This document shows, piece by piece, positions 30,955-36,079 of a stretch of DNA of 64,000 bases; position 1 is the stretch's first letter, and each line of letters begins with the position of its first letter. The DNA is taken from NCBI RefSeq assembly GCF_001618865.1, contig NZ_CP015136.1, positions 1,833,001 to 1,897,000 of the forward strand. The letters run 5' to 3'. Below the pieces are notes generated by a model. That model was not told the DNA's origin and made no database searches. It saw only the letters and a list, made by a program, of their open reading frames with translations. A program made the translations under genes and the position numbers. The stretch comes from Luteitalea pratensis. Its GTDB lineage: Bacteria; Acidobacteriota; Vicinamibacteria; Vicinamibacterales; Vicinamibacteraceae.

Positions 30955-32115
30955 ATGCTGGCGCGGGGCGCGTGGATCCTGTCGGTGATGGCACTGGTCT
31001 GGGCTGGGACGGCCTCCGCCCAGACCCTGCCGCGCGGCCAGGTCATCGAGGCCGTGACGCCGCTCGGTGATGCGACGCAGACCTACGCGCTCTACCTCCC
31101 TTCCACGTACAGCACCGATCGTGCGTGGCCGATTCTCATCGGCTTCCATCCCGGCGCGCGAGGGCGCGCCATCGTCGACACCTATCGTGACGCGGCCGAG
31201 GGCTACGGCTTCATCGTCGCGGGATCGAACACGTCGCGAAACGGGTCGTGGGACGTGTCGCTGCGCGCGGCCAACGCGATGCTCCAGGACATCGGTCAGC
31301 GTTTCGCTGTCGACGGCAAGCGCATCTACCTGACCGGTCACTCCGGAGGATCGCGGGTGGCGCTGCAGATCGCGCTGGCGAACAAGACGATTGCCGGCGT
31401 CATCGCGTCGAGTGCGGGTTATCCCGATGGCCGCCCGCGATCCTCGGTGCGCTTCCCGATTTTCGCCACCGCCGGCGTGGCTGACTTCAACTACATCGAG
31501 ATGCGGACGCTCGGGCGCGCGTTGAAGACCCCTCATCGCGTCGTGATCTTCAAGGGTGGGCACACGCTCCCGCCACCGGATGTGGCGATGCAGGCGATCG
31601 AATGGCTCGAGCTCCAGGCGATGGCATCGGGCGCGCGCACGAAGGACGGGTCACTGGTCGATCAGTTCTGGGCGACGCAGGAGCGCGCCGTCGCCGACGC
31701 AGGCGAGACCGCCGCCACCGTGCACCTGCTGCGCGCGATGGTGGACGACTTCCGCGCCTTGCGCGACGTGAAGGCCATCGAGACACGCGCGGCCGAACTC
31801 GCCAGGCGCAACGACATCAAGCGCGCGCTCGATCGCGAGCGAGCCGAGGACGACAAGGAGACGCAGGCGCTTGACGAGTTCGCGCGATACCAGGCGGGAC
31901 TCACCGACGATACGCTGCGGGTGCAGAGCCTGCACAGCCTGAAGCGATTCCTCGCTGAACTCCATGCGCAGGCAACGGCCGCGGAGGAGTCGCCCGAGCG
32001 TGCCCGCGCGCGACGCGTGCTCCGCGTCGTCACGATGGGGGCGGCGGAGTACACGCAGGATGCGGAGTATTCCCGGCTGCTGCAGCAGTACCGCCTGCCG
32101 GGCACGTCTCGCTGA
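30955..32115 (+). CDS. Secreted poly(3-hydroxybutyrate)-depolymerase-like hydrolase
   Basis: Alpha/beta hydrolase of 386 residues with signal peptide (SVMALVWAGTASA). Catalytic features: oxyanion region IGFHPGARG, nucleophile GHSGGSR, Asp in AGVADFNY and His in FKGGHTLPPP. This resembles the LpqC/esterase PHB-depolymerase group. The C-terminal 150 residues are helical and charged (AELARRNDIKRALDRERAED) and not part of that fold. It follows the propeller gene by 9 bases and ends the operon. Confidence 0.8.
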   Translation: MLARGAWILSVMALVWAGTASAQTLPRGQVIEAVTPLGDATQTYALYLPSTYSTDRAWPILIGFHPGARGRAIVDTYRDAAEGYGFIVAGSNTSRNGSWDVSLRAANAMLQDIGQRFAVDGKRIYLTGHSGGSRVALQIALANKTIAGVIASSAGYPDGRPRSSVRFPIFATAGVADFNYIEMRTLGRALKTPHRVVIFKGGHTLPPPDVAMQAIEWLELQAMASGARTKDGSLVDQFWATQERAVADAGETAATVHLLRAMVDDFRALRDVKAIETRAAELARRNDIKRALDRERAEDDKETQALDEFARYQAGLTDDTLRVQSLHSLKRFLAELHAQATAAEESPERARARRVLRVVTMGAAEYTQDAEYSRLLQQYRLPGTSR

Positions 32116-32145
32116 GTGCGTGGATTTTCCGCTTGACACGGTGCG

Positions 32146-32174
32146 TTGACTTCCAGTTGCCACGGGCGTATGTT
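32146..32174 (+). promoter_or_regulatory. Sigma70-like promoter of the riboswitch transcript
   Basis: TTGACT (32146-32151), a 17-base spacer and TATGTT (32169-32174). The expected start of transcription, about 7 bases on, falls on the first base of the riboswitch, which supports both calls. Confidence 0.7.
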
Positions 32175-32180
32175 GAAATC

Positions 32181-32322
32181 ACGCCAAAGACGCCCAACCA
32201 GCGTCACGGGGGACCCAAGGCGCGAATGACCGCGCACCGGGGCGAATTCCGCTGAACTCCTACACGGACCACGCGGATAGAGCAACTCCAGGCTCGAGCC
32301 CGTCAGCTAACCTCGTCGGCGC
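32181..32322 (+). ncRNA. Cyclic-di-AMP riboswitch (ydaO/yuaA leader)
   Basis: The leader carries the conserved blocks of the ydaO/yuaA class in order. CGCCAAA lies at the 5' end, then GGGGGACCCAAGG (about 32209-32221), GGGGCGAAT and CGAGCCCGTCAGCTAACCTCG. The final CGGCG can pair with the opening CGCC to close P1. These match the well-known B. subtilis ydaO leader blocks GGGGGACCCA, GGGGUGAAU and CCGUCAGCUAACCUCG. Known members bind c-di-AMP and usually switch genes off. Here the 3' strand of P1 ends just before the GGAG ribosome site of the SPFH gene, so control of translation is possible. Confidence 0.92.
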
Positions 32323-32334
32323 GTGGAGTCTGTC

Positions 32335-33291
32335 GTGTTGCACCGCCTGCACGGGGAGAGCGCGTACGCCGCTCTTCGTATCCTCGCATTCCGAACCCTT
32401 CCGATCCTTGCCTTCGCCTTCGTTGCGTTCGCGGCCGGCGTCTGGCTGGTCGGTTCGCACAACCCCTACACGCCGGCCGGATACGTTGGCTACCTGACCA
32501 AGGGCGCCGTCTTCGGGCAGAGCCGCTTCTATGGCGTACAGCGCGGGCCGACGTCGCCCGGACGCGGCTGGCTGCTCGACGTCGCCAACGTGAGCGTCAC
32601 GCCTTACACGTACACAGAGGAGTTCGCCGGCGAGAACTCGGTGCTGAGCCGGGACAATCTCAAGATCTCCTTCGCCGTCCACACCGTGTGGCGAGTCGAC
32701 GAGGCTCGCGTGCCGCTGTTCATGGAGCGGTTCAGCACCACCGTCAGCAACGGCGACACCGAGAAGGCCCCGGACGCGATCGTGAAGGTGGCTTATGGGC
32801 ACTTCGTGCGTGAGCCGCTGCGCACGTTTGCCCGGGACGAAGTGCAGCGCCGCAACGGGTTGAAGGTCAAGGACGACCTCATCACCATCGGCGATGCGGT
32901 GTTGCGTCGCATCCAGCAGTACGCCCAGGCCAGTCCTTTCGTCATCAGCAGCGTCGTGGTCGGCAATGTCCAGTACCCGTCCGAGGTGGCCGATGCGGTG
33001 GCGCGCAAGTTGGCGGCGACCCAGGAACTCGAGCGCAAGGACACCGAGATCGAAATCGAACGGAAGGACCGGACCAAGCGCGAGGTGCAGGCCGCGGGCA
33101 TCGCCAGTGCGATGCAGATCATTCGCGGACAGCTCAGCGCGATGTACATCCAGCACGAGGCCATCGAGGCGCAGAAGCTGATGGTCAACTCGCCGAATCA
33201 CACGACCGTGTACATCCCGGTCGGGCCGATGGGTGTGCCGCTCACGGGAACGTTCCCCGCGCCGGCGTCACCGGCGCCGAAGAGCCAGTAG
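32335..33291 (+). CDS. Band-7/SPFH-domain membrane protein under riboswitch control
   Basis: Prohibitin/HflK-like protein of 318 residues. One N-terminal membrane helix (LRILAFRTLPILAFAFVAFA) leads into an SPFH domain (VLSRDNLKISFAVHTVWRVD through FVISSVVVGNVQYPSEVADA) and a coiled-coil stretch (ATQELERKDTEIEIERKDRT). Such proteins form ring-like oligomers and organise membranes or regulate proteases. GTG 32335 is preferred over GTG 32323: it has GGAG (32325-32328) 6 bases ahead, and 32323 would sit against the riboswitch stem without a ribosome site. Control by c-di-AMP suggests a role in osmotic or envelope stress, as an inference. Confidence 0.85.
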   Translation: MLHRLHGESAYAALRILAFRTLPILAFAFVAFAAGVWLVGSHNPYTPAGYVGYLTKGAVFGQSRFYGVQRGPTSPGRGWLLDVANVSVTPYTYTEEFAGENSVLSRDNLKISFAVHTVWRVDEARVPLFMERFSTTVSNGDTEKAPDAIVKVAYGHFVREPLRTFARDEVQRRNGLKVKDDLITIGDAVLRRIQQYAQASPFVISSVVVGNVQYPSEVADAVARKLAATQELERKDTEIEIERKDRTKREVQAAGIASAMQIIRGQLSAMYIQHEAIEAQKLMVNSPNHTTVYIPVGPMGVPLTGTFPAPASPAPKSQ

Positions 33292-33304
33292 CCCTGCAGC
33301 GATT

Positions 33305-33374
33305 GCCTGCAGCCTGCAGCCTGCAGCCTGCCGCTGGTTGGCCGTAGGCCGCAGGCCGTAGGCTGTAGGCCGTT
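33305..33374. repeat. Two heptamer arrays between convergent genes
   Basis: GCCTGCA three times and GCCTGCC (33305-33332), then GGCCGTA, GGCCGCA, GGCCGTA, GGCTGTA and GGCCGTT (33340-33374). It fills the gap between the SPFH and permease stops. Confidence 0.9.
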
Positions 33375-33376
33375 TT

Positions 33377-36079
33377 CTATTCGCTCCTGAGCGCGATCGC
33401 CGGCTCGATGCGGGCGGCGCGCCAGGCCGGAGCGATGGCCGATACCAGCGCGCCGATGGCCAGCACGACCGCGACAGCTAAGAACGTGACTGGGTCGGAC
33501 GGCTTCACGTCGAACAGCATGGCCACCATCAGGCGGCCCAGGATGTTCGCAATGACGAGGCCGGCCACGATACCTCCGGCGAACACCCAGGCGGCGTTGC
33601 TGGCCACCAGCGCCAGGACGTGACGCGTCGAGGCCCCGAGTGCGCGGCGGACGCCGAAGTCGCGGATGCGTTGCTGCACGGCATAGGCGAGGATGCCGAA
33701 CAGGCCGACCATCGCCAGCAGCAACGCGAGGGCCGCAAACGCCATGACCAGGATGGCGCGGAACCGGTGCCGCGCGTTGGCCACGGCGGCGACCTCGTCG
33801 AGCGTCATGAAATGGCGCACGCTCACGAGCTGCGCCTTGTCCACGCGTCCGATCGCCTGGCGCACGGGCATCGTCAGCGCGGCTGCCGGCCCGCTGCGCG
33901 GGGTCACGAGCAGGAAGATGTCGCCTGGCGTGTCCTGCGCCATCGGCACGTAGATCTGCAGCAGGTCCTCGGTCTCGGTGGGTGACGCCTTGACCTGTCG
34001 CGCCACGCCCACAATCTCGCGCACCACGGCGACGGCCTGCGGCGAATCGGATTCGCGGATGACGAGCCGCCGGCCGATCGGGGAGCCGCCCGGCAGGTGC
34101 CGGCGCACGAACGCCTCGTTGACGATGCAGACGTGCACGCCACCGGCGATATCGCGCCCGTCGAAGGGACGTCCCTGGAGCACGGGCACACCCAGCGTCT
34201 CGAAGTAGCTTGGACTGACGATCTGCATGTCGGCCGCGGGGCGTTGACTCGTGGCCGGCGCCGGCTGCCCTTCGATCTCGAAGAACGCCGTGCCCTCGTA
34301 CGACTCGCCCAGCGGCAGCGTCGTTGCCCACGCGACACCCTGCACGCCCGGCAACGCGCGGATCTCCTGCTCCACGGCTCCGTAGAACTGCATCTCGGCT
34401 TCGTCAGTGGGATAGGTGTCCGACATCGGGTCCACGACCATGCTGAGCACCTGGTCGGCGGCGTAGCCGCGGTCGACACCCTCGACGGCCATCAACGTGC
34501 GCAGGAGCAGGCCGGCGCCGACGAGCAACACGGTGACCACCGCCACCTGCCCGGCCACCAGCAGTTCGCGGACTCGCCCGCCCCGACCCGTTGCGCTGCG
34601 CGTTCCCGACATCGTCTGCGCCGCCGACAGCGAGCTGGCATGCCACGCAGGGGCGATGCCGAACAGCACGCCGACCAACAACACCATGACGGCACAGAAG
34701 GCCGCGATGCGGGCATCGATGATGAGGGTCAGCACCGTGGGGAGGAGCGCCTCGGGCATCAGCGACGGCGCGACACGCAGGATCGCGGCGCCTATTGCCA
34801 GGCCGAGGAGCCCGCCGATGACCGCCAGCGCCAGGCTTTCGGCCATCAGCTGCCGGATGATGCGACGACGGTCGGCGCCCAGCGCCGCGCGGACCGCGAA
34901 TTCGCGTTGGCGCACCGTGGCGCGGGTCATCAGGAGGTTGGCCACGTTGGCGCAGCACATCAGCAGCACCAGGCCGACCACGCCGATGAACAGGACGGAT
35001 GTCTGCCGCAGTTCCGTGCCGAAGACCGCCTCGTGCAGCGCCTCGAGTCGCACGGACCGCTGCGCGTTGGTGTCGGGGAACTCGCGGGCGAGGGCGGCGG
35101 CGACCGCGTCGATCTCGCTCTGGCCAGCCTCGCGGGTCACGCCCGGTCGGAGTCGGCCGACGGCGACAAACACATGGCTACCACGGGCCCGGGCAGGAGC
35201 GCCCTGGATCGAGAGGAGCGCCCAGAGATCCGTGCGTCCGATGACCTGCGCGGCCCGTGGCACCACCCCCACGATCGTGTACAGCTCGCCATCGAGCCGA
35301 ACTTCGCGGCCGACCACCTGCCGATCGCCGTGGAAGCGCTCACGCCAGAAGTCCTCGCCGAGTACGACCACGTTGCGGCGCTGCAAATCGTCGGACGGCT
35401 GGAACGCGCGCCCGGCCAGCGGCTGCACGCCGAGTACGGTGAAGATGTCGGCGGTCACCCACTGCCGCGACACGGTGTCGGCCAGGCCGTCGGCGTTGCC
35501 CATCACCATGCCGCCCACATTGGCCGTGAAGCCGCCGATGGCGGCGAAGCTGCGGCTCCGGCCGGCCCAATCGACCATGTTCAGCGGCGACACCAGTCCA
35601 CGCGACGTCGTCGGGGTGCGCTCCCAGGCAAGCACGATCTGCGCGGGATCCGGGAACGGCAGCGGCCGGAGCAGCGTCGCGTCGACCAACGCGAAGATGG
35701 CGCTGTTGGCACCGATGCCGAGGGCGATCGTCAGGATGGCCGTGGCCGCGATGAGCGGGTTCTTGCCGAGCATGCGTCCGCCATAGCGGAGGTCCTGCCA
35801 CAGGTCACCGAGTCGGGATGTCTTCGGCGCGCCCAGGACCGGTGCCGGCGCGTGCGCCGCCTGGCGCAGCGGAGACATCTGCGCGGCGAGCGTCGTCGGC
35901 TCCACGAGTTCTTCCACGGCCAGCTGGCGCGCTCTCGCCTCGTCGTGACCCTCGCGGCGCAACTCCTCGAAGCGCTCGTCGAGATGCTGCGACAGCTCCT
36001 CGACGATCTCGAGCTCGCGCGAACCATCGAGCTGCAGGCGCGCGAGTTGCGCGCGAACATGGGGTGCCCACTCAGACAT
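33377..36079 (-). CDS. ADOP-type ABC permease (second copy)
   Basis: Intact 900-residue duplicated permease. The N-terminal prefix ([20 protein letters not shown]) is followed by a first helix [21 protein letters not shown] MacB periplasmic domain and FtsX helices follow ([20 protein letters not shown], then [20 protein letters not shown]). A second MacB/FtsX unit ends in [20 protein letters not shown] and [10 protein letters not shown]. No ATPase lies nearby. The start overlaps the end of the PadR gene by 8 bases, so translation is coupled. It is divergent in sequence from the 19.7-kb copy, so this is not a recent duplication. Confidence 0.92.

Follow-up and report, generated by a model that had tools for sequence, protein, structure and literature searches.

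A c-di-AMP riboswitch precedes a prohibitin-like SPFH gene in Luteitalea pratensis and appears to hide its ribosome-binding site in the aptamer pseudoknot

Introduction

The c-di-AMP riboswitches are known to control potassium transport, which is their usual target, but also osmolytes and cell-wall hydrolases. The function of bacterial SPFH proteins is poorly understood.

In the crystallised ydaO RNA the two strands of the pseudoknot are the loop ACUCCUUCG and the 3' tail CGAAGGAG, and this pseudoknot was described as stable, with many base pairs (PMC5393176). A review counts ydaO among the riboswitches whose docked form hides the ribosome-binding site (PMC10907184). For the c-di-AMP riboswitch of nlpC in Corynebacterium glutamicum, which is without a terminator, regulation is most likely translational, and it was suggested that a CTCC in the aptamer pairs with GGAG at the ribosome-binding site (PMC9960051).

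We report here on a leader found in a 64,000-nucleotide stretch of the Luteitalea pratensis genome, called below the window. Its aptamer, its promoter, the covariation of its pseudoknot, the location of the Shine-Dalgarno (SD), the absence of a terminator and the conserved pairing with the gene were all established by computation.

Results

The leader is a complete c-di-AMP riboswitch

The window carries a full-length c-di-AMP riboswitch on an SPFH gene, which confirms the original observation. Its features are, by position in the window:

32146..32174, + strand: promoter, with -35 TTGACT (32146-32151), a 17-nt spacer and -10 TATGTT (32169-32174)
32172..32335, + strand: c-di-AMP riboswitch aptamer, RF00379, ydaO/yuaA class, full model, single copy in the genome
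32182..32185, + strand: P1 closing stem, 5' strand CGCC, from the Rfam alignment
32208-32217, + strand: aptamer block GGGGGACCCA
32239-32247, + strand: aptamer block GGGGCGAAT
32285..32290, + strand: pseudoknot 5' strand ACUCCA, anti-Shine-Dalgarno, covarying with the 3' tail in 64 riboswitches of the taxonomic class
32293-32315, + strand: aptamer block CTCGAGCCCGTCAGCTAACCTCG
32318..32321, + strand: P1 closing stem, 3' strand GGCG, from the Rfam alignment
32324..32329, + strand: pseudoknot 3' strand UGGAGU, holding the Shine-Dalgarno GGAG (32325-32328), from pairing and covariation
32335..33291, + strand: SPFH/Band-7 gene (PF01145), GTG start, protein start conserved in a relative of the same genus, 318 aa, prohibitin-like

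The preliminary description had assigned the leader to the ydaO/yuaA class and proposed a covariance-model search as a check. Run with cmscan on the whole window, this search returned RF00379 at 32172-32335 on the + strand with 67.9 bits (E 1.4e-13) over model positions 1-134 of 134, far above the gathering score of 38 bits, and no other Rfam match in the window. The blocks quoted in that description and the closing stem are present, the core comprising GGGGGACCCA, GGGGCGAAU, CCCGUCAGCUAACCUCG and CGCC/GGCG. With this model, no further copy turned up in the 7,480,314-base single-contig genome, so that the SPFH gene is, as had been claimed, the sole target of this riboswitch type here. The genome also encodes a diadenylate cyclase domain (PF02457, 142.1 bits), from which synthesis of c-di-AMP is predicted. 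The free-energy fold of the leader does not exceed shuffled sequence in stability (z -0.06) and lacks the aptamer fold, the method being blind to the pseudoknot and to the ligand.

Promoter, transcription unit and start codon

A promoter had been proposed at the first base of the leader, and this holds: TTGACT-17-TATGTT is the sole sigma-70-like site in 32000-33500 (1.5 kb; 0.1 expected), and the start point that it predicts, ~32180-32182, coincides with the 5'-most base of P1. The spacing TTGAC-17-TA...T recurs before many riboswitches of the class—by class we mean the taxonomic class of this genome, Vicinamibacteria, of which 193 genomes were examined—and ends ~8-10 nt 5' of P1; the best promoter score averages 3.9 over 64 class riboswitches, against 0.7 for shuffled sequence. 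As the gene is flanked on its 5' side by an alpha/beta-hydrolase-like gene that runs in the same direction and ends at 32115, and on its 3' side by a convergent permease gene, it seems to be transcribed by itself. Between these convergent SPFH and permease genes, at 33297-33372 of the window, lie short tandem units, CCTGCAG followed by GTAGGC/CGCAGGC, perhaps a terminator or a repeat element.

The most likely start codon is the GTG at 32335, since it stands 6 nt past GGAG and since the first residues of the protein, MLHRLHGE, are common to a relative of the same genus; the alternative GTG at 32323 overlaps the ribosome site.

The Shine-Dalgarno lies in the pseudoknot

On one point the preliminary description has to be corrected: the leader does not end just before the ribosome site, as GGAG (32325-32328) sits inside the aptamer itself. 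It belongs to the 3' strand of the pseudoknot, in which ACUCCA (32285-32290) pairs with UGGAGU (32324-32329). Over the 64 class riboswitches one position of this pairing is A-U in 35, G-C in 17, C-G in 4 and U-A in 1, and the native pairing of loop and tail (mean 16.3) beats all of 300 swaps between relatives, the best of which reaches 15.4. The pseudoknot 3' strand is an SD followed, 3-14 nt on, by the start codon of a long frame in 54 of the 64 class riboswitches, against 2 of 70 in the other acidobacterial classes; a translational OFF switch is thus most likely. No terminator-like site was found at the leader, which makes the occlusion of the ribosome site, stabilised by the ligand, the simplest reading. 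Judged from these sequences, the riboswitch appears to hide the ribosome-binding site of the SPFH gene inside its own fold.

In one genome outside the class, another arrangement was observed (L122:2970-3060, G501:C78): here CGGAAGGCA, a strand of the pseudoknot, could also pair with TGCCTTTCCG further downstream, behind which the sequence is rich in T. This might be a terminator or an antiterminator competing with the pseudoknot.

The SPFH protein

The protein matches Band_7 (PF01145) with 48.9 bits, the gathering cut-off being 23.6. It consists of one N-terminal transmembrane helix at about residues 16-42 (by hydropathy), the SPFH domain and a C-terminal tail. Among solved chains, the profile of the family is closest to prohibitins (PDB 9urz, 8rrh), while phmmer with the single sequence gave no match in PDB and NCBIfam. 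An AlphaFold2 model, built from a 7-sequence alignment, was too poor for use (mean pLDDT 49.9). The protein family suggests that the product may be a membrane scaffold tuned by c-di-AMP.

Conservation of the riboswitch-SPFH pairing

RF00379 is present in 57 of the 193 class genomes and a relative of this SPFH gene in 6, the unit of gene and riboswitch being patchy. Four of these relatives, this genome included, have an intact 5' end (G000, G189, G111 and G037). They span three families, their SPFH proteins are 73-81% identical to that of the window, and in each of the four the riboswitch lies immediately before the gene; the conservation of the leader before orthologous SPFH genes, which had been named as a check, is therefore borne out. 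A fifth gene (G033) is cut by a contig end and does not enter this count, and the sixth (G101) is a 5'-truncated remnant. In this remnant (L152:2617-3788, G101:C29) the SPFH gene, without its first ~80 codons and without riboswitch, abuts a fragment of a permease gene; by their sequence, leader and N-terminus look as if they had been lost together.

Within the genus, three sister genomes contain neither an SPFH relative nor the riboswitch. For distant SPFH homologues with 53-60% identity, one from a MAG of the Akkermansiaceae (Verrucomicrobia) and two from Parcubacteria, a search with RF00379 returned nothing, even with the threshold relaxed to E 1. The four paired loci have no neighbour genes in common beyond a generic permease, so that the neighbourhood gives no functional clue; it indicates on the other hand that leader and SPFH gene were kept together amid changing surroundings. 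We observed besides that L073 (JAIEMQ010000074.1), a record titled 'Cyanobacteria bacterium', matches G111, an acidobacterium of the order of the window, and is probably a misnamed metagenome bin.

Targets elsewhere in Acidobacteriota

The first gene behind the class riboswitches (63 scanned) is AA_permease_2 (KimA-like) in 37 cases, KUP in at least 14 and Band_7 in 5; the frames with absent or odd Pfam matches are mostly KimA-like or KUP in the right frame and strand. As these other targets are potassium transporters, the SPFH gene can be placed in a potassium/osmotic regulon. The fifth Band_7 target of the class (G040) is a distinct, 648-aa flotillin-like protein; the second riboswitch of that genome controls KUP. 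Two more cases come from outside the class: in G363 a flotillin-like gene, 60% identical to that of G040, begins 167 nt after a riboswitch, and in G501 the distance from the riboswitch to a stomatin-like SPFH gene (276 aa) is 270 nt.

In total SPFH genes stand behind 7 of 134 riboswitch loci, three of them belonging to two other SPFH subfamilies. From 56 Band_7 matches in ten genomes (~62.6 Mb), i.e. about 1 in 1000 genes if a gene is ~1 kb, ~0.13 would be expected by chance among the 134; the occurrence of three subfamilies exceeds this by itself. For the flotillin-like genes the pairing varies, as the orthologues in G071, G075 and G090 are without riboswitch. A tree of the aptamers, weakly resolved, did not separate one origin of the SPFH pairing from several; those before SPFH genes fall into more than one clade in it.

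Relatives of KUP and KimA are missing from G000 and G189, which have one TrkH each. G111 has both KUP and KimA, neither of them with RF00379 nearby, and its sole riboswitch is on the SPFH gene. In other acidobacterial classes, three riboswitches (L111, L138 and L145, in G201, G396 and G425) precede genes of extracellular solute-binding proteins; further ones outside the class precede genes of a D-ala-D-ala ligase, an M23 peptidase or an FAD/NAD-binding protein, often more than 80 nt away.

Discussion

Altogether, we hold it to be likely that a genuine c-di-AMP riboswitch acts here on the translation of one membrane protein, of the SPFH type and prohibitin-like, and that it is OFF at high c-di-AMP. 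Transcription would start where P1 begins. At ample levels of c-di-AMP, the ligand would close P1 and stabilise the conserved pseudoknot, which would bury the SD; the ribosome could then not load and the SPFH protein would be off. On a drop of c-di-AMP—under low potassium or hyperosmotic stress, by analogy with known species—the pseudoknot would open and the protein be made. In this scheme we infer that the ligand binds, that it turns the gene off, which physiological signal is at work, and that the protein has a part in how the membrane responds to stress from ions or osmolarity. Because potassium importers share the same type of switch, an SPFH protein made at low c-di-AMP might, by analogy, take part in the membrane response to low potassium or osmotic stress.

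The regulation could also proceed as in Bacillus subtilis ydaO, by attenuation of transcription through a terminator or Rho; that the SD falls in the pseudoknot would then be incidental. The prototype acts by termination (PMC9960051), and in the other acidobacterial classes the more distant gene start leaves room for a terminator. Here however the start codon is only 5 nt past the last paired base of the aptamer and no terminator-like site follows; moreover the layout is near-universal in the class and rare outside, and we regard attenuation as unlikely. That c-di-AMP would switch the SPFH gene on rather than off appears quite improbable: certainly the leader could take alternative folds, but P1 and the pseudoknot, once stabilised by the ligand, would directly bury the SD, and those relatives that have been characterised switch their genes off.

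The explanation that we find hardest to credit is that the leader is a vestige left by a lost potassium transporter, the SPFH gene standing behind it by chance. The missing KUP and KimA relatives of G000 and G189 would fit such a loss, as would the scattering of the SPFH aptamers in the weakly resolved tree. Against it, four genomes from three families retain the pair amid unrelated surroundings, with every core block and the pseudoknot intact, and the same pairing occurs in two further SPFH subfamilies; in G111, besides, it is the SPFH gene that has a riboswitch although KUP and KimA are retained without any. 

Returning to the translational switch, the wider distribution of its targets leads us to propose, more tentatively, that in Acidobacteriota the c-di-AMP regulon may have a recurrent SPFH branch that had gone unrecognised. 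Three subfamilies or more would have been captured separately, which might suggest that SPFH assemblies join the adaptation of the membrane to changes of ions and turgor alongside the potassium importers.

In open papers other than those with the first lists of targets (Nelson 2013, Block 2010), no link of a c-di-AMP riboswitch to an SPFH or band 7 gene was found, and those on c-di-AMP with flotillin or stomatin appear to concern other matters; this supports the view that the SPFH protein is an unusual target. As a riboswitch the leader is an ordinary representative of its known class; what appears new, by the open papers, is that it stands on an SPFH gene, together with the expression platform seen throughout the taxonomic class. 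If SPFH is a conserved target, the second-messenger circuit of turgor and potassium would be linked directly to SPFH proteins, and the pairing predicts, in a form open to test, under which conditions the protein is needed.

Comparison with known systems

The likeness to prohibitins (PDB 9urz, 8rrh) is that of an SPFH-type protein; the similarity is weak (E 2.5e-6 at best, over ~110 residues). With the RF00379 ydaO/yuaA class, represented by B. subtilis ydaO/kimA, the leader shares the whole aptamer model, all the conserved blocks and the arrangement of the pseudoknot strands. It differs from B. subtilis ydaO/kimA in that the target is SPFH and not a potassium importer, that there is no terminator, and that the ribosome-binding site lies in the pseudoknot. 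The KimA-like and KUP leaders of the class have the same aptamer, the same promoter spacing and the same SD-in-pseudoknot layout, whereas their targets are potassium transporters. The riboswitch of C. glutamicum nlpC resembles ours in the lack of a terminator, in the proposed CTCC:GGAG pairing at the ribosome-binding site and in a probable translational control (PMC9960051); there, however, the target is a cell-wall peptidase and the pairing was drawn from one sequence, whereas 64 riboswitches are compared here. The SD-in-pseudoknot layout over 64 natural sequences thus brings comparative support to a translational mode previously proposed from one Corynebacterium leader.
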